Of a stretch of DNA of 35,088 nucleotides, positions 6,481 to 28,298 are shown one piece after another. Made by a program: the position numbers and the translations under genes. This DNA is from Planctomycetales bacterium. Its GTDB lineage: Bacteria > Planctomycetota > JAKEIC01. Position 1 is the first letter of the stretch; each line of letters starts with the position of its first letter. The notes beneath the pieces are model-generated. The model was not told the DNA's origin. It made no database searches and saw only the letters and a program-made list of their open reading frames with translations. The stretch lies in contig JAKEIC010000182.1 of the NCBI GenBank assembly GCA_022614695.1, forward strand, positions 1-35,088. The letters are read 5' to 3'.

Positions 6481-6489
6481 GGCGGGGGG

Positions 6490-6495
6490 ATTATA
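6490..6495 (-). promoter_or_regulatory. TATAAT -10 box of the kdsD-like gene
   Basis: On the minus strand a consensus TATAAT is followed by 9 nt (all C and G) and ATG 6480. The transcript start would fall within a few bases of the start codon, giving a very short or absent leader. No good -35 is seen. Confidence 0.55.
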
Positions 6496-6509
6496 GGGGG
6501 ACTCAGCCG

Positions 6510-6535
6510 GGGGACAGAGCCCCGGCGCTGTCCCC
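6510..6535. repeat. Inverted repeat between divergent promoters, candidate operator
   Basis: GGGGACAG (6510-6517), a 10-nt spacer and CTGTCCCC (6528-6535) form a perfect 8-bp dyad. It lies in the 82-bp gap between kdsD (-) and the E1/Ubl/E2 operon (+), just upstream of the rightward -10 element and within reach of the leftward one. The position favours an operator; an RNA hairpin on either strand is the alternative. Confidence 0.45.
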
Positions 6536-6541
6536 AGCTTG

Positions 6542-6547
6542 TAGAAT
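6542..6547 (+). promoter_or_regulatory. -10-like TAGAAT of the E1/Ubl/cyclase/E2/JAB operon
   Basis: TAGAAT stands 15 nt before GTG 6563, the first start codon of the conjugation operon. It matches the -10 consensus at five of six positions and the -10-like hexamers elsewhere in the window. The -35 is not recognisable, which may fit activator-dependent control near the dyad at 6510-6535. Confidence 0.45.
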
Positions 6548-6562
6548 CCGCCCCGGGGTCCC

Positions 6563-7759
6563 GTGTCCCTCCGGATCTCGGACGACGACCGGTACGCGCG
6601 GCTGCGGCTCCTCCCGGACCTGCCGCTCGAGCGGCTCCGGCGCGCGACGCTCCTCGTGGCGGGCGTCGGCGCGCTCGGGAACGAGGTGGCGAAGACCTTC
6701 GCGCTCCTCGGCGTGGGTCGCCTCCTCCTCCTCGACCGGGACCGCGTCGAGGCGAGCAACCTCTCCCGCGCGGTCCTCTTCCGCGCGGGGGACGCCGGAC
6801 GTCCGAAGGCCGAGGTGGCGGCCGAGCGGCTGCGGGAGCTGAACCCCGACGTCGCGGCCGTCCCCCTCGTCGCGGACGTCTCGGGCGGCCTCGGCCTCGG
6901 GACGCTCCGCGAGTGCGACGCGTCGCTCGGGTGCCTCGACTCGCGCGAGGCGCGTCTGGCGTTGAACGCCGCCTCTTTCCGGGCGGGCGTCCCCCTCGTG
7001 GACGGGGCCCTCGGCGACCTCTCGGGGACGGTGCGCGTCTTCCGCCCCCCCGACGGCCCCTGCTACGAGTGCGGGCTCACCGACACGGACTGGAAGCTCC
7101 TCGCCGCGCGCGCCCCGTGCGGGCTCGTGGGCCGCGCCGTGGCCGCGGAGGGGCGGATCCCGACGACGCCCATGGCCGCGGCGGCGGTCGCGGCGTTCGA
7201 GGTGGAGGAGGCGCTCCGGCTCCTCCGGGGGGACGGCGACGCGGCCGGCACCGCGCTCGTCTGGAACGGCCGCGGGCCGACGCTCTACCGGACGAGGCTC
7301 CCGGCCCGGCCCGACTGCTCGGCCCACGAGACGTGGCCGCCGGCGCGGCGGCTCCCGGTCGCGGCGGCGCGCGCGACGCCGGGCGAGCTGCTCGCCGAGG
7401 CCGCGCCGCGCCTCGGGCCCCGGGCGCGCCTCCTCCTCGGCCGGGAGTGGGTCGCCGCGGCGACCTGCGTCGCGTGCGGGCGGCGCGACCCGGTGCGGCG
7501 CCTCCGGAGGACCGTCCACGAAGAGGGGCGGGCCGCGGCCTGCCCGGGGTGCGGCGGGGCGCGGGAGCCCGAGGTCGTGGCCGAGGTCGGGCCCGGGTCG
7601 CCGTGGGCCGCCGAGACCCTCGCAGACCTCGGGGTCGCGCCCTACGACGTCGTGCGGGTGGCGGGAGAGGACGGGGCGGCCGAGTACCTCTGCCTCGCGG
7701 GGGACCGGGAGCCGTTGCTCGGGAACGGGGCGAACGGCGGGAACGGGAGGGAACCATGA
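6563..7759 (+). CDS. E1-like (ThiF/MoeB/UBA) activating enzyme
   Basis: The protein has 398 residues from GTG 6563. It shows the ATP-binding Rossmann motif GVGALGNE (34-41), the acidic strand LLLLDRD (Asp58, Asp60), the E1 signature SNLSRAVLF (Asn66, Arg69), Lys82, and CLDSREAR (Asp126), which together adenylate a Gly-Gly C-terminus. CYEC (167-170) is a zinc-type pair. Cys186, in APCGLVGR, occupies the place of the ThiF/MoeB loop cysteine and is the likely thioester residue. The C-terminal 120 residues are an extension with two further CxxC pairs (302/305 and 327/330), probably a zinc ribbon, absent from plain ThiF. Its stop overlaps the Ubl start (ATGA). With E2, Ubl and JAMM genes behind it, a modifier-activating role is far more likely than thiamin or molybdopterin synthesis. 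Its true partner and target are unknown. Confidence 0.92.
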   Translation: MSLRISDDDRYARLRLLPDLPLERLRRATLLVAGVGALGNEVAKTFALLGVGRLLLLDRDRVEASNLSRAVLFRAGDAGRPKAEVAAERLRELNPDVAAVPLVADVSGGLGLGTLRECDASLGCLDSREARLALNAASFRAGVPLVDGALGDLSGTVRVFRPPDGPCYECGLTDTDWKLLAARAPCGLVGRAVAAEGRIPTTPMAAAAVAAFEVEEALRLLRGDGDAAGTALVWNGRGPTLYRTRLPARPDCSAHETWPPARRLPVAAARATPGELLAEAAPRLGPRARLLLGREWVAAATCVACGRRDPVRRLRRTVHEEGRAAACPGCGGAREPEVVAEVGPGSPWAAETLADLGVAPYDVVRVAGEDGAAEYLCLAGDREPLLGNGANGGNGREP

Positions 7760-8055
7760 GCCAGGAGATCCGCGTCGTCTTCCTCGACCAGACCGGCGCG
7801 AAGAGCGTCGAGGCGATGATCGCCCGAGGGGTGAGCGTCGCCCGGATCCTCCCGAGTGTCGTCACGAAGATGAACCTCCCCGTGTCGGCGCCCGACGGGA
7901 CGGCCGTCGCCTACTCGCTCGATCACAAGGAGGGGGGCCGCCGCCTCCGCGAGGAGGAGACCCTCGACGGGGCCGGGGTCCGGGCCGGGGACCACCTGAT
8001 CGTCTATCCGGAGGTCGTCGCGGGCGCGGGCGGGCTTCTCGCGGCGACCGGGTAG
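7756..8055 (+). CDS. Ubiquitin-like (beta-grasp, YukD-like) modifier precursor
   Basis: This 99-residue protein starts with an ATG that overlaps the E1 stop. The pattern fits a beta-grasp fold: IRVVFLDQTG as the first hairpin, a helix (SVEAMIARGVSVARILPSVV), and RRLREEETLDGAGVRAGDHL followed by IVYPE as the closing strands, the usual '...L...GVRDGD.L.v.PE' ending of YukD/Ubl proteins. The C-terminus is VVAGAGGLLAATG. Gly92-Gly93 is followed by six residues, LLAATG, so the protein looks like a precursor that must be trimmed to expose Gly-Gly before activation. The JAMM peptidase of the same operon is the obvious candidate. A sulfur-carrier (MoaD/ThiS) role is less likely because those end exactly in Gly-Gly and do not travel with an E2. 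Confidence 0.82.
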   Translation: MSQEIRVVFLDQTGAKSVEAMIARGVSVARILPSVVTKMNLPVSAPDGTAVAYSLDHKEGGRRLREEETLDGAGVRAGDHLIVYPEVVAGAGGLLAATG

Positions 8056-8072
8056 AGTAGGTCGCCGTCGCC

Positions 8073-10310
8073 ATGACGCCGGAGCGCCCCGCCGACTCGC
8101 CCCCGCCCGCCGCGCCCGCGGCGGCCGCGGCGGCCCCGCGCGACCGCTGGGGGCCGCAGGCCTACCTGATGCTCGCGCTCGACGAGATCGGGCGCATCGC
8201 GGTCGAGGAGCTCGAACTCGCCGACCTGGCGCGGCGCATGACCGCCCTCATCAAGGACTCGCTCTACCTCGACCTCGTGTCGCTCGTCCTGGTCGAGGCC
8301 CAGGGCCGGAAGCTCGTTTTCCTCGGCTACGCGGCCGAGTACGAGATCGGCGTCCGGCCCGGCGACACCCAGTCGCTCGACGCGGGGCTCGTGGGGCTCT
8401 GCGCCCGCGAGGGACGCACGATCTACATCGAGGACGTCCGCGCCGACCCCCACTACGTCGAGGTCGTCCCCGGGATCGTCGAGGAGCTGGCCGTGCCCGT
8501 GCGGGCCGGCGGCCGCGTCGTGGCGGTCCTGAACTGCGAGACGCGCACGCCCGGGAGTCTCCGCGACCGGAGCGTCTTCCTCGAGATCGCGGCGGACCGG
8601 CTCGGAGCCGCGCTCGAGAACGCGGAGTTGCTGCGCGACCGGCAGAAGGCGCTCGACGGCATGCGCCGCTACGCCCAGCAGATGACGATCCTCGCGGAGA
8701 TCGCGCGCATCGCGACTCAGGACCTGGAGCTCAGGCCGATGCTCCAGAGGATCACCGACGCGCTCGCCGAGAGCTTCGGTTGGGGGTTCGTCGCCTGCGC
8801 GACCGTGGACTACAAGGCGAACCGCTTCGTCTGCGAGGCCGTGACGAGCCGCGTCGAGACGGGGGTGACGGTCGGCTACGGGCGCGAGCTCGGGAGCGGG
8901 GTGGTGGGGGAGGTCGCCGCGACGGGCCAGCCGATCCTCCTCGACGACGCGCGGACGCGGGCGAACTACGTCGAGACCATGCCGGGCGCGCGGAGCGAGC
9001 TGTGCGTGCCGGTGAAGTACGGGGGGACGGTCATCGCCGTCCTCAACCTCGAGAGCCTCGAGCCCGCGGCGTTCCACGACGAGTTGCCCCTCCTCGAGAC
9101 GGTCGCCGAGCAGGTCGCGGGCGCCATCGCCTCCGCGCGGCTCTACGGCGAGACCCGGCGACGCGCCGACCACCTCCGCATGATGAGCGAGGTGTCGCGC
9201 GCGGCGATGGAGGCGACCGACGTCCACGCCCTCCTCGACCGGGTGCTCGACTACCTCTACGGGCGATTGAGCTTCTCCCTCGTCGCGGTCGTCCTCCTCG
9301 ACGAGAAGGGGGAGGAGCTGGAGCTGGTCTCCTTCAAGGGGAACATCCCGCTGAACGTCTCACGCGGGACACGCATGCCGGTTTGGATAGGGATCGTCGG
9401 ACGGGCCGTGAAAACCGGCGAGACTCAGCTCGTCACCGACCTGGCGAACGACCCCGACTACGTGACGATCAACCCTGACGTCGTGGCGGAGCTGGCCGTC
9501 CCGATCCAGTTCCAGGGGAAGACCCTCGGGGTCGTGAACTTCGAGAGCACGACACGCGAGTCCTTCACCCCGGAGAACGTGCTCGTCCTCCGGACCTTCG
9601 TGGACCAGATCGCGGGCGCGGTCCACATGGCGGAGGGGAACCGGCGGCTCGCCGACGCGAACCGGCGGCTCTCGGAGCTCTTCTCGCGCTACGTGGCGCC
9701 CGACCTCGCCGAGGCGCTGCTCAAGGACCCCGAGCGGTTCCACACGCGCGGGGAGCGCCGGGAGGCCACCGTCCTCTTCGCCGACATCCGCGGCTTCACG
9801 CGCCTCTCCCAGAGGCTCCCGTCCGAGAAGGTGCTCGAGCTGCTGAACGAGTACTACGCCGAGATGGCCGAGGCGATCTTCGCCGAGCGCGGGAGCATCA
9901 ACCGCTTCCTCGGGGACGGATTCCTGGCGGTCTTCGGGGTGCCCGAGCGGCTCGCCGACCATGCGGGAGCGGCCGTCCGCGCCGCCCTCGAGATGCAGAG
10001 GCGCGTCGAGACCCTCTCGACCCGGTGGGTGGGGGCGACGGGAGAGCCCCTCCGGGTCGTCGTCGTCGCGAACGCCGGCCCCGTGATCGCCGGGAGCCTC
10101 GGGGACCCGAGGCACATGGAGTTCACCGTGCTCGGGGACGTCGTGAACGTTGCCGCGAGGCTCGAGGCCGAGGCCAAGGCCCGCGACGCGCGGATCCTCG
10201 TCTCGGGCGATGTCTACGACGCGCTCGGGGGCGCCGTCCCCGCGCGCGCGCTCGGCCCCGTGGAACTCCGCGGCCGCGAGGGCGCGGTGAGGCTGTACCA
10301 GGTGATGTAG
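8073..10310 (+). CDS. GAF-GAF-GAF class III adenylate/guanylate cyclase
   Basis: This 745-residue soluble protein has an Ala/Pro-rich N-terminus and three GAF domains (about 45-185, 215-355 and 378-518). Each ends in a similar ELxVPxxxxGxxxxVxNxE block. A short coiled linker follows, then a class III cyclase domain (about 565-745). Both metal aspartates are present (Asp571 in FADIRGFT, Asp615 in FLGDGF), as are LGDVVNVAARLE with Asp689 in the base-selecting position and the transition-state pair Asn692 and Arg696. The usual substrate Lys is replaced by Arg611 (SINRFLGDG), so ATP versus GTP use is uncertain. It lies 17 nt after the Ubl gene and 6 nt before the E2 gene, inside the conjugation operon. 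GAF domains bind cyclic nucleotides or other small ligands, so this should be a ligand-gated second-messenger source. Confidence 0.93.
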   Translation: MTPERPADSPPPAAPAAAAAAPRDRWGPQAYLMLALDEIGRIAVEELELADLARRMTALIKDSLYLDLVSLVLVEAQGRKLVFLGYAAEYEIGVRPGDTQSLDAGLVGLCAREGRTIYIEDVRADPHYVEVVPGIVEELAVPVRAGGRVVAVLNCETRTPGSLRDRSVFLEIAADRLGAALENAELLRDRQKALDGMRRYAQQMTILAEIARIATQDLELRPMLQRITDALAESFGWGFVACATVDYKANRFVCEAVTSRVETGVTVGYGRELGSGVVGEVAATGQPILLDDARTRANYVETMPGARSELCVPVKYGGTVIAVLNLESLEPAAFHDELPLLETVAEQVAGAIASARLYGETRRRADHLRMMSEVSRAAMEATDVHALLDRVLDYLYGRLSFSLVAVVLLDEKGEELELVSFKGNIPLNVSRGTRMPVWIGIVGRAVKTGETQLVTDLANDPDYVTINPDVVAELAVPIQFQGKTLGVVNFESTTRESFTPENVLVLRTFVDQIAGAVHMAEGNRRLADANRRLSELFSRYVAPDLAEALLKDPERFHTRGERREATVLFADIRGFTRLSQRLPSEKVLELLNEYYAEMAEAIFAERGSINRFLGDGFLAVFGVPERLADHAGAAVRAALEMQRRVETLSTRWVGATGEPLRVVVVANAGPVIAGSLGDPRHMEFTVLGDVVNVAARLEAEAKARDARILVSGDVYDALGGAVPARALGPVELRGREGAVRLYQVM

Positions 10311-10316
10311 GTCCGC

Positions 10317-10877
10317 GTGACCGCGCCCCCCTCCCCCCGCAACCGGAGGCTCCGCGCCGACCGCGAGGCGCTCGAGAGGCTCGCGGGAGAGAGCACGATC
10401 ATCTCCTTCGAGGGTCCCGGGGCGGCGCCCGAGAGATACGCGCTCTCGTTCCGGGGGTCGGGGCTCGAGCGCGGGGTCGACGGTCGCGTCGTGGTGCGCC
10501 GCGAGCACCGGATCGAGGTGACCCTCGGGCCGGAGTACCCGCGGCAGCGCCCGGACCTGCGCGTCACGACCCCGGTGTTCCACCCGAACGTGGCCGCCGG
10601 CGGCGCCGTCTGCCTCGGGGGCTATTCCACCCACTGGGCCCCGGGCCTCACCATGGACGCGATGTGCGCGATGCTCTGGGACATGATCCGCTACGCGAAC
10701 TACGACGTCCGGTCCCCCTACAACCTCGAGGCGGCGCGCTGGGCCTCGGCGCAGCGCGAGTACCGGTTCCCGCTCGACCCGCGGCCGCTCCGGGACCGGG
10801 TCGCCGCCGCGCGGGCGGCCCCTTCCGCACTCCTGGCGGAGCCGTCCCCGCCCCCGGACATCGTGTTCCGTGGCTGA
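10317..10877 (+). CDS. E2-like ubiquitin-conjugating enzyme (UBC fold)
   Basis: The protein has 186 residues from GTG 10317, 6 nt after the cyclase stop. The central block is a recognisable UBC core: IEVTLGPEYPRQRPDLRVTT corresponds to the 'PxxYPxxPP' strand region, and HPNV (89-92) supplies the HPN motif. Cys99 in GGAVCLGGY is the catalytic-type cysteine, exactly eight residues after the HPN Asn. WAPGLTM (107-113) matches the W-[SA]-P-x-x-T-I region, and a helix SPYNLEAARW (133-142) corresponds to the NPxxPLN-type end. These are the hallmarks of active E2s. The N-terminal helix and a Pro-rich C-terminal tail (168-186) are extra. Its stop overlaps the JAB start by 8 bp. No RING or HECT E3 gene is seen nearby, so it may act directly on targets. 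Confidence 0.9.
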   Translation: MTAPPSPRNRRLRADREALERLAGESTIISFEGPGAAPERYALSFRGSGLERGVDGRVVVRREHRIEVTLGPEYPRQRPDLRVTTPVFHPNVAAGGAVCLGGYSTHWAPGLTMDAMCAMLWDMIRYANYDVRSPYNLEAARWASAQREYRFPLDPRPLRDRVAAARAAPSALLAEPSPPPDIVFRG

Positions 10878-11445
10878 CGAGTTGCCCGAGATCCGGCTCG
10901 GGAACCTCCAAGTCCGGCCGCCCGAGTCCCGACCCTGGCCGCTCGGACGCCCCGGGATCTCGGCCGAGCGGCGCGGCGACGCCCGCGAGGACGACCGGCC
11001 GCTCTTCGTCGCCGCCGGCGCGCTCCAGGCCGCCTCGGACTGGTCCTGCGCGGACACCTCCCGCGAGGTGGGCGGACTCCTCCTCGGATTCCATGGGGTG
11101 GACGAGGGCCGGGAGTTCGCCGAGCTGACGGCCTTCCTCCCGGCCGGGGCGGCGCAGGGGGGCCCCGCCCACGTCGTCTTCACCCACGACGCGTTCGCCG
11201 CCCTCGAGAAGGCGCGCGACGCCCTCGACCCCTCCCTCGCGGTCGTCGGCTGGCACCACACGCACCCGGGCTACGGCGTCTTCCTCTCCGACGCCGACCG
11301 GTTCCTCCACACCCGCTTCTTCCCGTTCCCGTGGCAGGCGGCCCTCGTGGTGGACCCGGTCCGGAGGGAGCTGGGGTTCTTCCGGGAGGGGCCCGGCGGG
11401 CTCCGGACGACGGGGTTCTTCATCCTGCGAGTAGCAGGCGCCTGA
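10870..11445 (+). CDS. JAB/JAMM (MPN+) metalloprotease, deubiquitinase-like
   Basis: The protein has 191 residues from GTG 10870, within the end of the E2 gene. All JAMM zinc and catalytic positions are present: Glu66 in SREVGGLLLG, and the H-x-H-x7-S-x2-D motif in HTHPGYGVFLSDAD (His130, His132, Ser140, Asp143). The family cleaves isopeptide or peptide bonds after Gly-Gly of ubiquitin-like proteins. Here it could both mature the Ubl, whose Gly-Gly is followed by six residues, and remove conjugates. The first 40 residues are a non-conserved, charged extension. It is the last gene of the five-gene cluster; prfB follows after 66 nt with its own promoter. It resembles the stand-alone bacterial Mov34/MPN/PAD-1 proteins of E1-E2 operons. 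Confidence 0.92.
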   Translation: MADELPEIRLGNLQVRPPESRPWPLGRPGISAERRGDAREDDRPLFVAAGALQAASDWSCADTSREVGGLLLGFHGVDEGREFAELTAFLPAGAAQGGPAHVVFTHDAFAALEKARDALDPSLAVVGWHHTHPGYGVFLSDADRFLHTRFFPFPWQAALVVDPVRRELGFFREGPGGLRTTGFFILRVAGA

Positions 11446-11511: not shown

Positions 11512-12625
11512 ATGTCCCCCCGCGAACTGCGAGAGACCCACGCCGCGCTCGCCGAGAGGTTCGCGAAGCTCCGGGACTCGCTTTGACTTCGCCGGCCAGT
11601 CCGCCGCCCTCGCCGAACTCGAGAAGAGGATGGCGGACCCCGGGTTCTGGAACGACCGCGAGGGCGCGCAGGTCGTCGTCGGGAAACTGAGAGCGCTCAA
11701 GGCCCTCGTCGAGCCCCTCCGGCAGGTCGAGAAGGAGCTCCGCGACCTGGGCGAGCTCCTCGAGATCACCGAGGACTCGGACGCGGCCTCCGTCGAGACG
11801 CTCCGCCGCGACGCCGCCGTCGCCGGCAAGCGCCTCGACGCGCTCGAGTTCGCGCGGCTCCTCTCGGACGCCGACGACCGGCTCGACTGCTACCTCGAGG
11901 TCCACGCGGGAGCGGGGGGCACCGAGGCGGCCGACTGGGCCGAGATGCTCCTCCGCATGTACACGAAGTGGTGCGAGCGGCGCGGGTACGAGACCGAGCT
12001 GGTGGACCAGCTCCGCAACGACGAGGCGGGCGTCAAGCACGCGACGCTCCGGGTCGCGGGCCTCTTCGCCTACGGCTACTTGAAGGCCGAGACCGGGGTC
12101 CACCGGCTCGTCCGGATCTCGCCCTTCGACGCGAACGCCCGTCGCCACACCTCCTTCGCGTCCGTGGACGTGATGCCCGACTATCCCGAGGAGGCGGTGA
12201 CGATCCGCGAGGAGGACCTCAAGATAGACACCTACCGCGCCGGGGGCGCGGGCGGGCAGCACGTGAACGTCACGGACTCCGCCGTCCGGATCACGCACCT
12301 CCCGACCGGCATCGTCGTCCAGTGCCAGAACGAGCGGAGCCAGCACCGGAACCGCAAGGTCGCGATGAAGATCCTCATGGTGCGGCTGAAGAGGGTGAAG
12401 GAGATGGAGCGCGAGAGGGACCTGGCCGCCACCTACAGCGAGAAGGGCGAGATCGCCTGGGGGAGCCAGATCCGGAGCTACGTCCTCCAGCCCTACCAGC
12501 TCGTCAAGGACGTCCGGACCGAGGTCGAGACGAGCAACACCGGCAAGGTCCTCGACGGCGAGCTGGACCCATTCATCGAGGCCTTCCTCCGCTGGGACGC
12601 GGCGCGGAAGACCCGCCCCCGTTAG
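11512..12625 (+). CDS. prfB: Peptide chain release factor 2, with programmed +1 frameshift
   Basis: ATG 11512 opens 24 codons that end in CTT and an in-frame TGA (11584-11586). The rest continues in the +1 frame from GAC at 11585 (DFAGQSAALAELEKRMADPG) to TAG 12623-12625, giving about 370 residues in total. This is the classic autoregulatory CTTTGAC arrangement of RF2. Ser203-Pro204-Phe205 (RISPFDANAR) is the RF2 stop-codon-reading tripeptide. Gly247-Gly248-Gln249 (AGGQHVNVTDSAVRITH) is the peptidyl-tRNA hydrolysis motif. RF2 terminates at UGA and UAA; shortage of RF2 lets ribosomes shift past the TGA. The two ORFs are therefore one intact gene. The SD-like stimulator before the slip site is weak (CCGGGA, against AGGGGG in E. 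coli). Confidence 0.95.
11581..11587 (+). other. Programmed +1 frameshift site of prfB (CTTTGAC)
   Basis: CTT (11581-11583) sits in the P site and TGA (11584-11586) in the A site; slipping by one base places GAC (11585-11587) in frame. The heptamer is identical to that of E. coli prfB. Both flanking reading frames match RF2 domain 1. Confidence 0.92.
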
Positions 12626-12675: not shown

Positions 12676-13359
12676 GTGGACGACGCGGCGCTCCCGACCC
12701 GGATCCCGCTCTTCCCGCTGCCGAGCGTGGTGCTCCTGCCGACCGCGGTGATCCCCCTCCACATCTTCGAGCCGCGCTACCGCCTCATGGTGAGGCGCTG
12801 CCTCGACGGGACCGGCGTGTTCGGGATGGTGCTGACGCGGGACGGCGGCCCCGAGGCCGACGCGACGGAGCGGCCCCTGCACGAGGTCGGCGCGGCCGGG
12901 CGGATCGTGGACCACGAGCCCGTCGGGCCCGCGCGCGACGGACGGATGAACATCCTGGTCCGGGGCGAGCGCCGTTTCCGGATCCGCGCCGTGGACCGGG
13001 CCGAGCCCTACCTCGTCGCGGAGGTCTCGTACCTCGCCGCTCCCCCCGCGCCCGCCGCCCGCGAGGCGGAGGGGCGCGAGCGCCTCGGGAAGCTCTTCCG
13101 GGAGTTCCTCGCCCACTGCGTGGGCGACACCGAGGCGGCGCTCGACCGGCTCGGGACCCTCACCGAACTCGGCGACGCCGTGGACTTCTGCGCCTCGCTC
13201 CTCGACCTGTCGCTCCGGCGGCGGCAGGCGATCCTCGAGACGCTGGACACCGGCGAGCGCCTCGAGTCCCTCGTCTCCGAGATCGAGGCGCGGATGAGGG
13301 CGATCCGCTTGAAGGCGCTCGAGAAGCGCTTCCCGAAGGCGGGCTTCTCGGCGAATTAG
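12676..13359 (+). CDS. Lon N-terminal (LON_substr_bdg) domain protein
   Basis: The protein has 227 residues from GTG 12676. It opens with IPLFPLPSVVLLPTAVIPLH, IFEPRYRLMVRRCL and later ILVRGERRFRIRAV, the signature of the Lon protease N-terminal substrate-binding (PUA-like) domain, followed by a helical C-terminal half (residues about 125-227). There is no AAA+ or Ser-Lys protease domain, so it is a stand-alone LON-domain protein, common in bacteria and of uncertain function; substrate recognition or folding help is usually proposed. The reading frame is open far upstream, but that part is a shadow of prfB. Its stop overlaps the stop of the convergent GTPase-kinase gene by 3 bp (13356-13359 region). 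Confidence 0.88.
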   Translation: MDDAALPTRIPLFPLPSVVLLPTAVIPLHIFEPRYRLMVRRCLDGTGVFGMVLTRDGGPEADATERPLHEVGAAGRIVDHEPVGPARDGRMNILVRGERRFRIRAVDRAEPYLVAEVSYLAAPPAPAAREAEGRERLGKLFREFLAHCVGDTEAALDRLGTLTELGDAVDFCASLLDLSLRRRQAILETLDTGERLESLVSEIEARMRAIRLKALEKRFPKAGFSAN

Positions 13360-15668
13360 GGCTCGGTGCGCCGGAGGATCACCGTCTTGATCTTCCGCGT
13401 GATCGAGCGGGCGAGGCCCTCGGAGGCCCCGGTCGCCTCGCCCTCGAGCTCGCGCTTCAGGTCCTTGAGCGCCTGCAGCGTCTCGGCCGCGCTCGGGTAG
13501 CGCTCGTCGCGGTCCTTCTCCATCATCTTCTTGAGGATGGGCGCGAACTTCTTCGGCACCTGCGCGTTCGCCTCCGAGGGGTCGGGAGGCCTCTGCGTCA
13601 GGTGCTTCACGAAGATCTCCTCGGCGGTCTTGCCCTCGAACGGGGGCTTGCCGACGAGCATGTGGTAGAGAGTCGCCCCGAGCGCGTAGACGTCGGCGCG
13701 GGAGTCTATGTCCGGCCGCCTCTCGATCTGCTCGGGCGCGATCGTGTAGGGGGACCCGACGATCTTCTCCGCCTCGTCGCCCGCCCCGATCCGCCTCGCG
13801 AGCCCGAGGTCGCAGAGCTTCGCGATCCCCTCGGGGGTGAGCATGACGTTCGCGGGCTTCACGTCGCGGTGGACGAGCCCGTGGGCCTCGGCGTGCGCGA
13901 GGGCGCGGAGCACCTGGATCGAGATGTCGAGCGCCTGGAGCGGGGGGACCGCGCCCTTCTCCTCGAGGATCTGCTTCACGGTCTGCCCCTCGACGTACTC
14001 CATCGCGAAGTAGTAGTAGCCCCGGGAGCGGCCGACGTCGAAGGCCTGGACGATGTTCGGGTGGTTGAGCTGCGCCGCGGCGCGCGCCTCGGTCTGGAAC
14101 CGCTCGATGAACGTGTCGTCCATCGCGAGGCGCGGGTCGAGGACCTTGAGCGCCACGATCCGGTCGAGGTTCATCTGCCGCGCGGCGTAGACGAGCCCCA
14201 TGGCCCCTCGGCCCAGCTCCGCCTCGATCTTGTAGCCCTCGATCGGGTTCTTCACGATCTCGCCCTGGAGGGACTGGCAGATGATCTCGACCTGGCGCTC
14301 GCTGAGGAACCCCTCCTCCTGCAGGATCACGCCGAGGTACTTGTCCACGCCCTTGCGGCGGTTGAGCCGCTGGACTTCGAGCGCACTCTCGAGCTGCTCG
14401 GGGGTGACGAACCCGTAGCGGACGGCGAGGTTCCCGAAGTAGGCCGCGGTCTTGCGCCCGCGCGCCATGACCTTCAGGAACTGCGTCGTGCCCCCCTTCT
14501 CGGCCCCCGCCTCGGCCGCCCCCTCGCGCTCGAGCTCGCCCCGGTGGGCCTCGGCGAGCGCCACGAGGATCTCGCGGTGCTGCCGGCGCGAGAGCTGGCC
14601 CCCCGCGACGAGGAGGGGCCCGAGGGCCACCTGGAAGTCCACGCTCTTCTGCGTCGCGATGGCGCGCTTCACGCTCGCGAAGTCGGTGAAGCCCGACTCG
14701 ATCGCGATCTTGCCGTAAAGGATCTCCTCGTGGATCACCTCGCCGTGGGCCTGGACCTGGAGCGCGGTGCGCACGTCCTCCTCCGCGAGGAAGCCCCGCC
14801 GGAGGAGGATCTCGTCGAGCCGCATCGGGAGCTTGGCCATCTCGGCCGTCCTCTGGACCGCCACGGCCTCGGCGACGCGGTCGGCATCCAGGAGTTTCAG
14901 CCGCGTGACGACCTCCGCGAGGTAGCGGTCGGAGTGGGGGGAGTAGACGGCGGCGACCGAGCTGAAGGTGCGGAGGTAGATCTCGCCGGCGCGGCGCACG
15001 TCCGCGAGGCCGTCTCCCTCCCCGTCCGCGCGGACCCCCGGGCGCGACCCCGGGGCCCTCGCCCCGCGGCCGGCCAGCCCCCGGAGGGTGGCCGCCGTCG
15101 CGATCTTGAGCGCCTCGAGGACGCCCTCGCCCCGGGTGACGCTGCCCGGCACGACGGGGATCTCCCCCAGCGGTCCGCCGGCGCTCCCGCCCGCCTCTCC
15201 GGCGAGCGGGAGAGGCTCGTCCTGCCGGGCCAGGTCGCGCTTGTTCGCGAACACGACGAGGGGCACCGGGTCCCCCGCCTCCGCGCGTCCCTCGAGCACC
15301 TTCCGGACGCGGCGGAACGCGCGGACGCTCCCCGCCCCGTCCTGGCCCGAGCCGTCGGCGACGAACAGGACACCGTCGGCGTGTTGCAGGATCATCCGCT
15401 CAGCCAGCCAGAACCGGTCCCGTCCCGGGAGCGCGTAGAGTTCCCCGAGGACCTCCACCCCCGAGATCGCCCCCACGTCCAGGAGGAGGAAGTCGTAGAG
15501 CAGCGTCGGCCCGTCCGGCGAGGGGAACGAGATGAGCCCGCCCCGCGCGCCGCGGCGGAGACGGCCGAGGAGGTGCCGGAGGAACTCGGTCTTCCCGCTC
15601 CCGGCGGGCCCGGCGAGCGCGAGGGCGAACTCGACCCTCGCGGTCCCGGTCGCCGGCTCGGTGTCCAC
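13356..15668 (-). CDS. MglA-like GTPase / MshEN-like repeats / Ser-Thr kinase fusion
   Basis: The protein has 770 residues from GTG 15668, with GGAGG 4 nt upstream. Residues 12-200 look like an MglA/Ras-type GTPase: P-loop GPAGSGKT (20-27), TLLYDFLLLDVGAISGVEV (55-73), ELYALPGRDRFW (76-87) in the MglA PM3 position, ADGVLFVADGS, and the guanine motif NKRD (142-145). Residues about 245-470 hold several 'LG-x-x-L-x-x-x-GF-x-x-x-x-Q-x-x-x-A' units (for example LDEILLRRGFLAEEDVRTAL and YLGVILQEEGFLSERQVEII). These resemble MshEN/GspE-N repeats, some of which bind c-di-GMP. Residues 479-735 are an active-looking Hanks kinase: GRGAMG, Lys508, HRDVKPAN (600-607), DLG (620-622), APE (644-646). No transmembrane segment is seen. 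Divergent from the LacI-PilZ gene. A cytoplasmic switch-controlled kinase is inferred. Confidence 0.85.
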   Translation of the reverse strand: MDTEPATGTARVEFALALAGPAGSGKTEFLRHLLGRLRRGARGGLISFPSPDGPTLLYDFLLLDVGAISGVEVLGELYALPGRDRFWLAERMILQHADGVLFVADGSGQDGAGSVRAFRRVRKVLEGRAEAGDPVPLVVFANKRDLARQDEPLPLAGEAGGSAGGPLGEIPVVPGSVTRGEGVLEALKIATAATLRGLAGRGARAPGSRPGVRADGEGDGLADVRRAGEIYLRTFSSVAAVYSPHSDRYLAEVVTRLKLLDADRVAEAVAVQRTAEMAKLPMRLDEILLRRGFLAEEDVRTALQVQAHGEVIHEEILYGKIAIESGFTDFASVKRAIATQKSVDFQVALGPLLVAGGQLSRRQHREILVALAEAHRGELEREGAAEAGAEKGGTTQFLKVMARGRKTAAYFGNLAVRYGFVTPEQLESALEVQRLNRRKGVDKYLGVILQEEGFLSERQVEIICQSLQGEIVKNPIEGYKIEAELGRGAMGLVYAARQMNLDRIVALKVLDPRLAMDDTFIERFQTEARAAAQLNHPNIVQAFDVGRSRGYYYFAMEYVEGQTVKQILEEKGAVPPLQALDISIQVLRALAHAEAHGLVHRDVKPANVMLTPEGIAKLCDLGLARRIGAGDEAEKIVGSPYTIAPEQIERRPDIDSRADVYALGATLYHMLVGKPPFEGKTAEEIFVKHLTQRPPDPSEANAQVPKKFAPILKKMMEKDRDERYPSAAETLQALKDLKRELEGEATGASEGLARSITRKIKTVILRRTEP

Positions 15669-15682
15669 AAGGCCTCCGGGGG

Positions 15683-15688
15683 ATTCTA
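15683..15688 (-). promoter_or_regulatory. -10-like TAGAAT of the GTPase-kinase gene
   Basis: On the minus strand TAGAAT precedes GTG 15668 by 14 nt, with GGAGG between them as a Shine-Dalgarno. No -35 is evident. Confidence 0.4.
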
Positions 15689-15727
15689 GCCGGGCCGGGC
15701 CGGGCGCGCAGGGGCGGGGGACGCCGG

Positions 15728-15755
15728 TTGACATCCTCCACATGTGGCATAGACT
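15728..15755 (+). promoter_or_regulatory. Sigma-70-type promoter with palindrome in the spacer
   Basis: A consensus TTGACA (15728-15733), 16-nt spacer and TAGACT (15750-15755) drive the LacI-HTH/PilZ gene. The spacer contains the perfect 10-bp palindrome CCACATGTGG (15738-15747), well placed for a repressor that blocks RNA polymerase, possibly the encoded HTH protein itself. Downstream, GCGGCG-TTT-CGCCGC (15762-15776) can form a hairpin in the leader before GTG 15789. Confidence 0.65.
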
Positions 15756-15788
15756 TCCGGGGCGGCGTTTCGCCGCGGGGGCTAGCGC

Positions 15789-16295
15789 GTGCCGAAGAAG
15801 GGCATCAGCCACGACGACATCGCGCGCCGACTCGGCCTCGCGCGCTCGACGGTCACCAAGATCCTGAATCAGCTCCCGACGAACCGCGCGAGCGCGGAGA
15901 CCGTCCAGAAGGTGTTCCAGCTCGCGAAGGAGCTGGGATACGACTTCCACCGGCTCCGCAACATCCATCGCCGGCGCGACGAGCGCCGCCAGTGCCGGAT
16001 CGCCGCCCGCCTCGAGCTGCTCCAGAGCGGAGGCAAGGTCGCGGGCACCGGGACCGCGGTCGTCCACGACATCTCGCTCCACGGCGCCCAACTCCAGCAG
16101 GTCACGATGGACGGGAAGGGCCTCCCCGTGACGCCCTTCCTCCTCCGCCTCACCCTCAGCGAGGCGCCGCTCGCGGACCTCGTCGGGACCGGGGAGGTGG
16201 TGCGGTTCTCGTCGCGGGAGCCGGTGAAGTTCGGGATCAACTTCCTCGAGATGACCGAGGCGGACCAGCGGCGGCTCGGGGAATTCCTGAGATGA
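15789..16295 (+). CDS. LacI-type HTH fused to a PilZ (c-di-GMP) domain
   Basis: This 168-residue protein starts at GTG 15789. Residues 5-55 are a LacI-family DNA-binding headpiece: ISHDDIARRLGLARSTVTKI (helix-turn-helix) followed by AELVQK-like helices and the hinge-type LGYDF ending. The sugar-binding domain of LacI is absent. Residues 60-168 are instead a PilZ domain with the c-di-GMP motif R66-x3-R70 (RRQCR) and D94-x-S96-x2-G99 (DISLHG), plus VKFGINFLEM near the end. The inferred role is a transcription factor whose DNA binding responds to cyclic di-GMP. The stop overlaps the ATG of the pseudokinase gene (ATGA), so the two are translationally coupled. The promoter palindrome just upstream suggests autoregulation. 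Confidence 0.85.
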   Translation: MPKKGISHDDIARRLGLARSTVTKILNQLPTNRASAETVQKVFQLAKELGYDFHRLRNIHRRRDERRQCRIAARLELLQSGGKVAGTGTAVVHDISLHGAQLQQVTMDGKGLPVTPFLLRLTLSEAPLADLVGTGEVVRFSSREPVKFGINFLEMTEADQRRLGEFLR

Positions 16296-19225
16296 ACGGG
16301 CCGGGAGACGGCCTCTTCCTCGACTGCCCCGGCTGCGGGGCGGTGCTGAACGCCCGCGGCCGCGCCCCGGGCCAGAAGGTGAAGTGCGGGAAGTGCGGCG
16401 AGGTGATCGCCGTGCCCGCGGAGGGCGGGGCCGCGCCGGCGGGGGGACCTCCGCCCACCACGGTCGGGGCGCCTCCCACGACGGTCCCCTCCTCGACCCC
16501 GGGGCCCCCGGTGCCCACGGGCCCGCCGACGAGGCTCGACGCGGCATTCCCGTCGGGCCCCCCGACGCGCATCGATGCGGCGTCGCCTGCGGGCCCTCCG
16601 ACGCGCCTCGACGCGGGGCTCTCCGGGCCTCCGACGACCGTGGGCCCCTCGACCGGGCTCGGGACGGGGGGGCTCGGGACGGGGCGCGCGGCCCCGGCCG
16701 CCGCTCCGCCGCCCGCGCAGATCGTCCCCGGATACGTCCTCCACCGCGAGGTCGCCCGCGGCTCGGCCGGCACCGTCTACGAGGCGACCCGCAAGGAGAA
16801 CGGCCAGCGCGTCGCGATCAAGGTGCTCTCGGACGAGACGGCTTCGGACGCGGCAGCGCTCTCGGCCTGGAGGAAGGTCGCCGAGACGGGCCAGTCGATC
16901 CTCCACGACAACCTCGCGCGGGTCGTGGACCACAGGCTCGAGGGCCCCGCCGGCGGCGACGCCGGCCCGCTCTGGGTCGCGTCCGAGTGGGACGACGGGC
17001 AGCCGATCGGCGGCGCGTCCGGGCGGATGCGCATGTCGGTGGACCGGGTCGCGAGGCTCGGCATCCAGGTCGCGCGGGCGCTCCACGCCGTGCACGAGAA
17101 GGGGCTCCGCCACGGGGCCGTCCAGCCCGGGAACATCTCGCTCGGCTCGGGGGACCACGTCGTGCTTCTCGGGCTCGGCGTCCCGCGGAGACCCTCGCGC
17201 GAGCCGACGCCCTATCAGGCCCCCGAGGAGGCCGGAGGCTCGTCCCGGCCCTCCGACCCGCGCCGCATGGACGTGTACGCCCTCGGCGCGGTCCTCTACG
17301 AGATGCTCACCGCCCAGCTCCCCCTCCGGAGCGGCGCGGGCGGGAAGAGCGACAGCCAGGCGGGCCTCGCCAAGCCCCGCGCCCTCGACCCGAGGATCCC
17401 GGTCGCCATGGAGTCGGTGGTGCTCAAGGGCCTCCACCCCGACCCGACGCGCCGCTACGCGACGGCGCTGGCGATGGCCGAGGACCTGGAGCGCTTCCGC
17501 AAGGGGCAGAACGTAAAGGCGGGCGGGAGCCTCATCACCAGCTCACTCGCATGGGCCCAGGAGAACCGCGGCCAGGCGGCGCTCGTGGGGGCCGGGCTCG
17601 CGGCCGTCGCGACGGGCCTCGTGGCGCTGGCGCTCCTCCCCCGGGGAGGCCCCGCGGGCGGGGCGACGGGCGGGACGACGGGCACCGGCGGCAAGGGGGG
17701 CTCCGCGACGGGGGCCGCGTCGGCGCTCTCCGACCTCGAGGACGCGCGCGCGAACCTCGGCGCTTCGCGGATAGACGCGGCGCGTCAGGCGATTACGAGC
17801 TACCTCGACAAGATGGGCGCCGCGGCGGTGCCCGAGGCCCACCTCATCGCGGCGAAGACCGCCCGTCTCTCGGGCGACCTCGCGGCCGCGCACGAGTCCC
17901 TCTCGCACGCCGAGCCGGCGGCGGGCGGGTCGGCCGCCGCGCTCGCCGAGCGCGGGGAGATCCTTCTCGGGCTCGGCCAGGCCGAGGCGGCGCTCGCGAA
18001 GTTCGACGCCGCGGTCGCGGCCGACGCGAAGTGCGCCCCGGCCGCCGCGGGACGCGGGGCGGCGCTCCTGCGGCTCGGACGCGCCGAGGAGGCCGCGGCG
18101 GCGCTCGCCCAGGCCACCGAGCTGGATCGCGACGACACGAACGCGCAGGTCCGCCTCGCCGAAGCCCTCGCGTCCGCCGGCAAGGTGGACGAGGCGCTGA
18201 AGGCGGCCCAGGCGATGGCGGGCAAGCTCGTCCCCCCCCGCGGGGCGGCCTACGTCGTCGGCTTCTGCCTCGAGAAGAAGCTCCGGCCCGACGAGGCGCT
18301 CGCCCAGTACCAGGCCGAGAACAAGACGCCGGGCGGCGACGCCCGCGCCGCGGCCGCGGCCGAGAGGCTCGACGCGCAGGTGAAGCGCGTCCGTGAGCTG
18401 GGGAAGGCCCTCGTGGAGGAGATCGGACGCAAGACCTCGGACGAGCCCGGGCGGCAGGAGCTCCGGGCCAAGGCTGCCGAGTGGCTCGCCCGTTGCCGCG
18501 AGACGCTCGACCGCACCTCCGACCCGGCGACAGTCGGGCAGATCCACTACTTCGCCGCGCAGTTCGAGAGGATCCTCGGCCAGCGCGCGGAGGCCGAGAA
18601 GAGCCTCACGCGGGTCCTCTCGCAGCCGGGCGGCGGCCGGGGGCAGGCCCCGCCTCTCCAGGCGCGGCAGATGCGGGCGGATCTCCGCGCGGAGCAGGAC
18701 GACCTCGGGGGCGCGCTCGAGGACTACGACTGGATGGCCAACGCCTACCAACGGGAGCTGTCGAACCCAAATCGCCCCCCGGAGGTGGTCCCGCGGTACG
18801 TCCAGCTGGTGCTGCGTAGGCTCGAGATCCACCGGCGGCTCGGCGACCTCAGGAACCTCGAGGGCGAGTCGGACGGGCTCGTCCGGATCCTCGGGCAGCT
18901 TGCCGCGGCGCAGCAGGAGGGGAACGTCCCGAAGCCGATGCGCCGCCAGGCCTGGATCTACCACGGCGTGACGAAGGCGCTGGCCGGCAAGGTGAAGGAG
19001 GCGCTCGCCGACCTCGAGCGGGCGCGCGAGGCGTCGGAGGAGGACGAGCAGGCGGGGCTCCACTGGCTCCGCGCGGCCATCGCGATGGCGAAGGGCAACG
19101 CCGCCGAAGCTCGCGACTGGATCCAGGAGGAGCTGAATCTCGAGAAGAAGGACTTCGAGCGGCCGGCCAGGGACCTGCTCTCGGAGCTGGACCGCCGGGA
19201 CGCCGGAGGCGGGGGCAGGAAGTAG
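16292..19225 (+). CDS. Zinc-ribbon / pseudokinase / TPR membrane protein
   Basis: The protein has 977 residues from ATG 16292. An N-terminal zinc ribbon (Cys12, Cys15, Cys32, Cys35; CPGC and CGKC) is followed by a Pro/Gly/Thr linker with repeated GPPT-(R/T) units (77-116). A Hanks-type kinase fold follows at about 147-405. It keeps the glycine loop ([10 protein letters not shown]) and Lys177 (VAIKVL), but the catalytic HRDxKxxN is HGAVQPGN (274-281) and the DFG metal Asp is missing (LLGLGV). It is therefore predicted to be catalytically dead. One membrane helix lies near 429-449 ([20 protein letters not shown]). The rest, about 500 residues, is TPR-like helical repeats ([40 protein letters not shown]). 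A scaffold or sensor at the membrane is inferred. The frame extends upstream, but that part overlaps the LacI-PilZ gene. Confidence 0.82.
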
Positions 19226-26090: not shown

Positions 26091-28298
26091 ATGTCCGCGA
26101 TGACCCGAGGGGAGCGGGCGCTCGCCGCCGCCGAGGCCGGGAACGCCGCCGCCGCCGAGGACCTCTGGCTCGAGGCCCTCACGGCCGGAGAGGCCGCGGA
26201 CCCCGCGTTCGCCTCCGCGGCCAAGATCCTCGTCACACGTGGCGAGAAGGAGCGGGCGGCGGTCCTGCTCGGGATGACCGCCCCGCTGCTCGAGTCGGCC
26301 GGGCGGGGCCGGGAGACGTTCGAGGTCCTCTCGATCCTCGCGCGTCTCACGCCTGCCGAGCCGGGGCTCCGCGACCGGATCGCCTCGGCGGCGGCCGTCG
26401 CGTGGCGCGAGCACCCGCAGGCGCGCGAGATCGTGGAGACCCTCCGTCTCGAGGGCCCCCCCGAACCGGGAGAGCTCGCCGAGGCCCTCCGCGCGGCCTT
26501 CGCCTTCGCCTCGGGCGACGTGGTGCGCCACAACGGGGGCTGGGGCGTCGGCCGGATCTCGAGGCTGGACGCGCGCCGGCTCCAGATCGTCGTGGACTTC
26601 CCGGGAGCCTCCGGGCGGGCGTTCCCGCTCCGGACCGCCGGCGGGCTCCTCTCGCGGGTTCCTCCCGACGCCTTCGACGCGCTGGCGGTCGCGGCCCCCG
26701 AGAAGCTCCGCGAGGAGGCGGCCCGCGAGCCGGCGAACCTGGTGAAGAGGCTCCTGCGCGACCGGGGGGGGAAGGCGACGCTCCGCGAGGTGAAGGGGGA
26801 GCTGGTGCCGCGCCTCGTCGCCGACGGCGACTGGACCCGCTTCTGGGGCGCGGCGCGGAAGGCGCTCCAGGCCGACCCGTTCGTGGAGGTCGGATCGGGG
26901 GCGAACGCCCCGCTCGCGATGCGCGAGCGGCCGGTCACCCGCGGGGAGGACGTCCTCGCCCGGGTGCGGCGGGCCGCGGACCTCGCCGACAAGCTCCGGG
27001 AGGTGCGGGCGAGCCGCCGGGAGGTCACCGAGCCGGCGCTCCTCGCCGCGATCGCGGCCGAGGTGGCGACCGAGGCGGCCGGGGTCGCGGCCTCCGACCG
27101 TGCGGGACGCGCCGCCGTGGCGCTCGCGCTCGAGGAGGTGGGGGCCCCCGCGGGCGCGGGTGCGCCTCCCGCGGATCTCGCCGCGCTCGCGGCGGACCCT
27201 GCGGCGGCCACCGAGGTGCTTTCGGGGCTCTCGGATCCCGCGCACCGCTCCGCCTTCCTCGGGCGGGTCCGAGCGGCCCGGCCCGCGGACTGGGGGGAGG
27301 TCGTGTGCGGGGTCCTCCAGCGGCCCTCCGTCCCCGGCGCCTACGAGGCCGTGGCCGAGGCGTGCCGCTCGGCCGGCGGGCTGGCCTGGGACCTCTTCCG
27401 GACGGCGGCCGCGCGGGCGGCGGCGCCGTCGGCCCGGGTCCCCGCGGCGACGCTCTGGATCGCAGGCGAGGTGATCGGGGGCCGGGTCCCGGCCGGTCCT
27501 CCCTTCCCGGACGAGGCGGACCTCCTCGCCCGCGCCCTCGAGCTCCTCACCCACGCGAGCGCCGACGCCGAGTGGGGCCGGGACGCCCAGGCCAAGGAGG
27601 TGCTCCGGCGCGGGCGCGAGGCGCTCTCCGCCGACTCGCTGATCGCCTTCCTCGAGAGGCGCGCGGCGGAGGAGATGCCGCGTCTCTCGCACGCGGTGCT
27701 CGGATGCCGCGGGCTCACGGGTCGGGTCAAGGCCGAGGTCGAGCGCTGGGTGGCCCGGCACCACCCCGACGCGCTGGTCGCTCCCTCGCTCGAGGAAGAG
27801 CCGATCGTCCCGCCCGGGACGATCGTCGTCTCCGCCGCCGGGTTCGCCAAGCGGCAGGCCGAGTTCGCGCAGCTCATGAACGTGGAGATCCCGAAGAACC
27901 AGGTGGAGCTCGGGGAGGCGATCGCCAAGGGGGACCTCGCCGAGAACGCCGAGTACGACGCGGCGCGCGAGCGGCAGAGGATCCTGCTCGCCCGCGCCGG
28001 GGAGATGAAGGCCGAGCTGGAGAAGGTCCACGTGCTCGATCTCGCGTCGGTGAAAGCCGACCGCGCGCAGCCCGGGACGAGGGTCCTCGTGCTCGGGGCC
28101 GGCGGCGAGCGCGAGGCGTACACGCTGCTCGGTCCCTGGGACGTGGACGTGGCCCGCGGGATCATTTCCTACCTCTCCCCCATCGGGAAGGCCCTCCTCG
28201 GGAGGCAGGCGGGCGACGACGTCCGCGCGCGGCTGCCCGAGGGGGAGCGGAGCTTCCGGATCGAGGCGATCGAGACGCTCGGGGGGGAGAACGCGTGA
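26091..28298 (+). CDS. greA: Long GreA-type transcription elongation factor
   Basis: The protein has 735 residues from ATG 26091, far longer than the usual ~158 of GreA. Residues about 585-735 are a complete GreA/GreB module: a coiled coil with GDLAENAEYDAARERQ (tip acidic pair Asp615 and Glu618, the residues that place Mg in the RNA polymerase channel), then AQPGTRVLVLGA, YTLLGPWDVDVARGIISYLS, SPIGKALLGRQAGDDV and ARLPEG of the FKBP-like C-domain. The first ~580 residues are Ala-rich helical segments with no recognised family, including GDVVRHNGGWGVGRISRLDA, a CarD/TRCF-RID-like strand pattern near residue 140. Long Gre proteins are known in chlamydiae and spirochaetes. Stop and next start overlap (GTGA). 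Confidence 0.85.
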   Translation: MSAMTRGERALAAAEAGNAAAAEDLWLEALTAGEAADPAFASAAKILVTRGEKERAAVLLGMTAPLLESAGRGRETFEVLSILARLTPAEPGLRDRIASAAAVAWREHPQAREIVETLRLEGPPEPGELAEALRAAFAFASGDVVRHNGGWGVGRISRLDARRLQIVVDFPGASGRAFPLRTAGGLLSRVPPDAFDALAVAAPEKLREEAAREPANLVKRLLRDRGGKATLREVKGELVPRLVADGDWTRFWGAARKALQADPFVEVGSGANAPLAMRERPVTRGEDVLARVRRAADLADKLREVRASRREVTEPALLAAIAAEVATEAAGVAASDRAGRAAVALALEEVGAPAGAGAPPADLAALAADPAAATEVLSGLSDPAHRSAFLGRVRAARPADWGEVVCGVLQRPSVPGAYEAVAEACRSAGGLAWDLFRTAAARAAAPSARVPAATLWIAGEVIGGRVPAGPPFPDEADLLARALELLTHASADAEWGRDAQAKEVLRRGREALSADSLIAFLERRAAEEMPRLSHAVLGCRGLTGRVKAEVERWVARHHPDALVAPSLEEEPIVPPGTIVVSAAGFAKRQAEFAQLMNVEIPKNQVELGEAIAKGDLAENAEYDAARERQRILLARAGEMKAELEKVHVLDLASVKADRAQPGTRVLVLGAGGEREAYTLLGPWDVDVARGIISYLSPIGKALLGRQAGDDVRARLPEGERSFRIEAIETLGGENA

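Follow-up and report, generated by a model that had tools for sequence, protein, structure and literature searches.

A planctomycete ubiquitin-like conjugation operon with a triple-GAF class III cyclase gene between its Ubl and E2 genes

Genes for a ubiquitin-like protein (Ubl), an activating enzyme (E1), a conjugating enzyme (E2) and a JAB or JAMM peptidase lie side by side in the clusters described by Iyer, Burroughs and Aravind (PMC1779556, in the portions of it used here). An operon of the same kind is found in the DNA analyzed here, a 35,088-nucleotide stretch from a Planctomycetales bacterium (contig JAKEIC010000182.1 of assembly GCA_022614695.1; hereafter the window). Between the Ubl and E2 genes of this operon, which occupies positions 6563 to 11445, is a gene for a class III nucleotide cyclase with three GAF domains. 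The arrangement is real and rare; the kind of operon is known, and the cyclase insertion is so far a one-off. No earlier report of a cyclase in such an operon was found in the literature searched, a body of work in which most subscription journals are not represented.

The closest described systems resemble this locus in part. In the 2006 paper of Iyer, Burroughs and Aravind, as far as the portions used here go, YukD is placed in ESAT-6 export clusters, whereas the window has a YukD-like Ubl in the company of E1, E2 and JAB; in addition, the word "cyclase" is absent from the text of that paper, whereas here a triple-GAF cyclase stands between Ubl and E2 (PMC1779556). The ubiquitin operon of Caldiarchaeum subterraneum has one Ubl, E1, E2 and JAMM-type peptidase, as here, and supplies the best fold match to the window's Ubl (see below), but it is archaeal and has a RING E3 (PMC11354881, PMC5654768). 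The Bil system (BilABCD) likewise carries Ubl, E1, E2 and JAB in one operon; however, BilA contains a pair of Ubl domains and BilD a pair of adenylation domains (PMC11354881), whereas the window operon has one of each. Like the locus studied here, type II CBASS ties E1/E2 chemistry to a nucleotide cyclase. Its cyclase is a CD-NTase, and its E2 and E1 are fused in the single protein Cap2, whereas in the window the cyclase is of class III, E1 and E2 are individual proteins, and there is a dedicated Ubl. In Pycsar systems the cyclase PycC adjoins a dedicated effector of the PycTM/PycTIR type. Finally, a 2011 paper on RING fingers by Iyer, Burroughs and Aravind reportedly covers YukD-like Ubls with E1, E2 and JAB; no RING gene was recognised at the window operon.

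The five genes and their products

All five genes lie on the + strand, and the domain assignments that follow are Pfam matches. The E1-like gene (6563..7759, with a GTG start; ThiF, 9.9e-46) is followed by the gene for the YukD-like beta-grasp Ubl (7756..8055; YukD, 2.2e-12), the cyclase gene (8073..10310; GAF_2 over three stretches, 9.7e-50, and Guanylate_cyc, 8.5e-25), the E2-like gene (10317..10877; UQ_con, 2.6e-13) and the JAMM/JAB peptidase gene (10870..11445; Prok-JAB, 9.1e-6, and JAB, 4.4e-5, both barely above the cut-offs). From the coordinates of the open reading frames (ORFs), the successive junctions measure -4, +17, +6 and -8 nt, and the DNA was also read directly at all of them but the E2/JAB overlap. 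An earlier, sequence-only reading of the window had proposed both this layout and these gene identities, and both are confirmed, the first by the coordinates and the second by the domains. The upstream neighbour of E1 is a divergent gene with SIS and CBS domains whose start is probably the ATG at 6480; if so, the two genes are 82 nt apart. This space makes it plausible that the five genes form one transcript begun there, and on sequence grounds the interval 6481..6562 is a likely place for the operon promoter. The cyclase is probably translated from the same mRNA as the conjugation genes. GC3 of the five genes is 0.94-0.97, and their GC3 and codon usage are near those of nine other window genes. 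Thus the cyclase is not compositionally foreign, and a horizontal origin for it finds no support in composition. A misjoined contig was also considered and set aside, since the junctions are neat gene-to-gene joins and the composition is uniform.

Conservation of the conjugation proteins was scored in alignments of copies from the fetched loci described below, limited to those that are long enough and free of stop codons. The E1 has one ThiF domain and a C-terminal zinc ribbon (C302, C305, C327 and C330), the cysteines of which are kept in 61-63 of 68 rows. C167, C170, C186 and C252 are kept in all 68 rows, and nucleotide-binding residues are also kept; C186 is a candidate for the thioester cysteine. 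The E2 has an HPN motif at residues 89-91 and a cysteine at 99 (H89 in 84/84, P90 in 83/84, N91 in 82/84 and C99 in 77/84 rows). E66, H130, H132, S140 and D143 of the peptidase are each present in 65/65 rows, so its metal-binding residues are complete although its Pfam match is marginal. The Ubl, a single domain of 99 aa, has the conserved end ..VVAG90, with A89 in 72/72 rows and G90 in 71/72; the sole exception is the sister genome G001. Nine residues follow G90 (the stretch is written AGGLLAATG), and among the Ubls of relatives several stop exactly at AG and others are tailed. The predicted model of the Ubl is beta-grasp-like, with a mean pLDDT of 85.2 and values below 50 for residues 91-99 (3-row alignment). 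Its best fold match in the PDB is Caldiarchaeum ubiquitin (E 1.6e-5), and SUMO and the ESX-3 translocon follow closely. The features by which YukD-type Ubl conjugation operons are recognised, an E1 with its cysteine and zinc ribbon, an Ala-Gly Ubl, an HPN/Cys E2 and the JAMM residues, were all found. Together, the conserved residues and the fold point to a complete set, made up of a processable Ubl, activating and conjugating enzymes and a matching peptidase, and we infer that the operon encodes a pathway of E1-E2 Ubl conjugation and JAMM deconjugation.

The catalytic domain of the cyclase aligns with solved bacterial class III cyclases, and the regions FADIRGF, NRFLGDG, FTVLGD and VNVAARL, which include D571 and D615, are present. 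We take the D571 and D615 regions to supply the metal-binding aspartates and the VNVAAR region to supply the Asn/Arg pair. The base-recognition position, usually Lys and Lys in 10/10 other cyclases aligned, is occupied by Arg611 (INRFLGD). Because of this replacement the product of the enzyme may differ from cAMP. In cyclases of the cyanobacterial CyaB type, which are multi-GAF class III enzymes, the GAF domains lie ahead of the class III catalytic domain, as they do here. The window cyclase differs from that type in its Arg at the Lys position and in its GAF domains, where a loose pattern for NKFDE, the motif of cyclic-nucleotide-binding GAFs, gave zero matches. It may be ligand-gated, as the sequence-only reading called it. 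The cyclase is no catalytic part of conjugation.

Distribution of the operon and position of the cyclase

Matches to the E2, some weak partial ones included, were found in 40 of the 392 genomes sampled across the phylum and in 68 of the 248 genomes in the class of one relative, G376. The corresponding counts are 4/23 in the class of G199 and 9/12 in the class of G018; the phylum and class samples overlap. The window's own class consists of two genomes, both with E2. For comparison of gene order we used 81 loci, in which gene calls are rough: the window, L002, L003, 39 regions from the phylum search and 39 regions from the search of the G376 class. The phylum-search regions cover 40 of 44 E2 places, with the window as one more and three weak places excluded. 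Excluded from the G376-class search were new places of families f25 and f106, second copies in several f99 genomes, and weak places. The four-gene set of Ubl, E1, E2 and JAB is widespread in the phylum. A search of plasmids with the E2 gave no matches, and a wider scan of genome contigs gave just two relatives, one in Paraburkholderia ribeironis and one in a gammaproteobacterial metagenome-assembled genome, with no cyclase found there by the local profile.

The commonest order of the core genes among the 81 loci is Ubl-E2-E1-JAB (33 loci), followed by E1-Ubl-E2-JAB (12, including the window), Ubl-E1-JAB-E2 (11) and E2 alone (8); the remaining 17 have other or truncated orders. In the E2 tree the window pairs with G001 with moderate support (91/88) and lies near G376, G199, G187, G160 and G352, and in the E1 tree it is not firmly placed. 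The sister genome G001 (L013:8081-9731, L095) has Ubl-E2-JAB without the cyclase and without an adjacent E1. An E1 of the same family is encoded on another contig of that genome as a 390-aa ThiF frame (E1 profile match 1.1e-125), and the G001 Ubl ends in AA, not AG; the split E1 and the AA end may reflect decay or another role. Two further variants were seen. Three loci (L017, L054 and L055) have E2-like genes of family f25 without the active cysteine, and the sequence fetched for them shows neither Ubl nor E1 nor JAB. Three others (L053, L109 and L129) have a doubled JAB and E2 (Ubl-E2-JAB-E1-JAB-E2), and the second E2 of L053 is without the cysteine.

A class III cyclase was seen in two of the 81 loci: in the window it is an internal gene of the operon, and in G018 it flanks the operon in divergent orientation to E1. 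The latter gene (L014:11490-13148) encodes a long N-terminal portion without a recognised Pfam domain. Few sequences went into the profiles used here for cyclase, FHA and kinase, and the kinase profile was made from one protein. Pfam results for 38 of the 40 E2-bearing genomes of the phylum search agree with the cyclase profile scan; this check applies to the phylum-search set, and L100-L138 are covered by the profile scan alone. Where E2 directly follows Ubl, the gap between the two profile matches is -5 to 475 nt in the 57 other loci, compared with 2291 nt in the window. A search of the phylum's 391 other sampled genomes gave no ortholog of the window cyclase at E<=1e-60, with two candidates scored per genome among the matches listed. 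The best matches in G001 have 30-39% identity, in the C-terminal cyclase region only. With no cyclase inside the operon at the other loci and no ortholog, the cyclase appears to be a lineage-specific insertion, as far as sampled. The sequence-only reading had named, as the finding that would speak against it, relatives with the conjugation genes alone and the cyclase elsewhere in their genomes; the first half of this holds, and the second was not seen in the ortholog search.

Signalling genes at related operons and the role of the cyclase

Signalling partners are common in some branches of these operons, and none were seen in others. An FHA protein is encoded inside 12/12 loci of the Ubl-E1-JAB-E2 type (L016, L018, L051, L064-L067, L070-L072, L077 and L078, one of which is cut at a contig edge), and Pfam confirmed the FHA domain in 7/7 of those tested. 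Trypsin_2 proteins are present in L016, L018 and L065, and Prok-RING_1 in L016 and L018 and, just below the cut-off, in L065. These loci have a distinct variant order, in which Ubl-E1-JAB is followed by the FHA protein (accompanied, in the loci tested, by Prok-RING_1 and trypsin-like proteins) and then by E2. A kinase domain is encoded after JAB, on the same strand and at a distance of <=400 nt, in four loci (genomes G018, G157, G190 and G163), and the G190 and G163 kinases are fused to an N-terminal FHA domain. In G133 a PAS hybrid histidine kinase follows E2. These kinase genes of E1-Ubl-E2(-JAB) operons are at L073:3198-4493, L076:4721-5995, L014:6425-8698, L057:2933-4759 and L074:7729-9912. 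In G001 the operon has a divergently oriented FHA-SpoIIE gene beside it.

We favour, with a probability of roughly 0.5, the idea that the operon is a stand-alone Ubl pathway of a phylum-wide family, and that one lineage gained the triple-GAF cyclase between Ubl and E2 as an accessory signalling module. In this pathway the JAMM peptidase would trim the Ubl tail after G90, E1 would activate the Ubl via C186, and E2 would hand it via C99 to target proteins, from which the peptidase would take it off again. The cyclase might be a local version of the modules found in some sister operons, namely FHA, FHA-kinase, kinase and hybrid histidine kinase proteins. Since it would share an mRNA with the machinery, cyclic nucleotide made in response to a GAF-sensed signal might be matched to conjugation. 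A functional link between cyclase and conjugation is a plausible hypothesis.

A number of findings weigh against such a link. In the profile scan none of the 80 other loci, 71 of them with both Ubl and E2, has a class III cyclase inside the operon, and G001 does not have it either; the earlier view of the cyclase as an integral, conserved part of the operon is therefore not supported. With a cyclase inside in 1/81 loci, conservation gives no support to the link. About 0.12 cyclases are expected by chance inside the operon spans (148 cyclase domains in 245 Mb), so that a single, selected case proves little alone, and for two cyclases to lie no further than 5 kb from 41 places, one of them the selected window, P is ~0.05. 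The G018 gene was dropped as a second GAF-cyclase because Pfam finds no GAF in it, and a cyclase lies beside the operon in no other examined genome of its class. No cyclic-nucleotide-binding domain was found among the ten window genes tested. The figures for FHA and kinase genes are raw counts, and none of these genes was seen within 3 kb of the 33 Ubl-E2-E1-JAB operons, 10 of which have one flank shorter than 3 kb. Four further E2s of the RING-type branch (L019, L020, L062 and L063) stand without another core gene in the sequence fetched, and an FHA gene is near only L063, at 2.7 kb. As regards conjugation itself, Bacillus YukD, which gave the family its name and lies in an export cluster, is reported in the portions used here as not conjugated (PMC1779556).

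The most serious rival, which is nearly as well supported as the signalling-module reading and which we regard as a real though minority possibility, is that the cyclase gene landed in a genuine Ubl operon at a site that tolerates insertions and is simply transcribed along with it, its messenger unlinked to conjugation. The single occurrence among 81 loci and the failure to find an ortholog in relatives are what a passenger gene would give, and cyclases are common cargo, with 11 cyclase domains in the 5 Mb of the window's own genome. In addition, in two relatives that share the gene order, Ubl and E2 are separated by 273 and 468 nt, stretches in which small ORFs are predicted. A passenger accords less well with the tight packing on both sides of the cyclase (17 and 6 nt), with its host-like codon usage and with the recurrence of other signalling genes at some of these operons. 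A stronger claim than the signalling-module reading, that of a two-way circuit, would have the GAF-sensing class III cyclase, with its unusual base recognition, and the ubiquitin-like cascade regulate each other, as one case of operons that recruit exchangeable signalling modules; we consider this unlikely.

It is still less probable that the cyclase is itself a target, switched by Ubl attached to one of its lysines, on the model of type II CBASS, where conjugation controls the cyclase. It shares the operon with the conjugation enzymes, and conjugation of a CBASS cyclase is a precedent in the parts of the sources used (PMC10097602, PMC10449767, PMC11153139), but the enzymes are retained at the other loci in the absence of this cyclase, which means that their main targets must be different proteins, and no site can be named from the sequence. 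CBASS-like conjugation of the cyclase's own end, a parallel drawn in the sequence-only reading, is unlikely, as the protein ends in RLYQVM rather than Gly, and the Ala-Gly end belongs to the Ubl. Least probable is an antiphage system of the Bil, CBASS or Pycsar type, even though several proteins match models of such systems: the E1 matches the PADLOC E1-E2 and BilD models over part of the model length, the peptidase matches the BilC model weakly (0.0086), and the cyclase matches PycC models (5.7e-23). Among eight neighbour genes, a kinase near 13359-16547 matches the PADLOC PD-T4-6 kinase models strongly (1.3e-85), a methyltransferase resembles the mad2 model, and two HEAT genes resemble other models over partial length, all of which may be generic. 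Membership in Bil was rejected on the 99-aa one-domain Ubl and the single ThiF stretch, and PADLOC gave no match for the Ubl or the E2. Type II CBASS was rejected on the class III Guanylate_cyc domain and the separate E1 and E2, with no CD-NTase recognised among the window genes tested. Pycsar was rejected because no dedicated effector of its type was recognised among those genes and the PycC match is unspecific, 3/3 control cyclases matching these models too (3.9e-31 to 6.7e-23). The operon thus resembles Bil and CBASS, as had been proposed, and belongs to neither, its domain make-up being different.

Neighbouring genes and wider meaning

Downstream of the operon, the stretch at 11512-12625 looks like prfB, with RF-1 and PCRF domains (Pfam) and a +1 programmed frameshift site, CTTTGA. 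Its putative ATG at 11512 is 66 nt downstream of JAB, and the frameshift was read by eye. A large protein encoded at 13356-16547 has a protein kinase at its C-terminus, besides weak AAA and GTPase-like matches, and a 735-aa protein encoded at 26091-28298 has C-terminal GreA/GreB domains.

To our knowledge, Ubl conjugation outside defence has been little tested in bacteria. The family described here is widespread in one phylum, with catalytic residues conserved and a Ubl whose end is processable, and several of its branches carry phospho-signalling genes. With its five genes, the window operon could be used to test whether small-molecule signals can direct a ubiquitin-like pathway in bacteria. 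A two-way circuit, if true, would be the first bacterial case we know of in which ubiquitin-like tagging is coupled to a class III cyclic nucleotide messenger. Should the cyclase prove to be just a passenger, the association with FHA and kinase genes would still provide a testable lead on what these pathways respond to.

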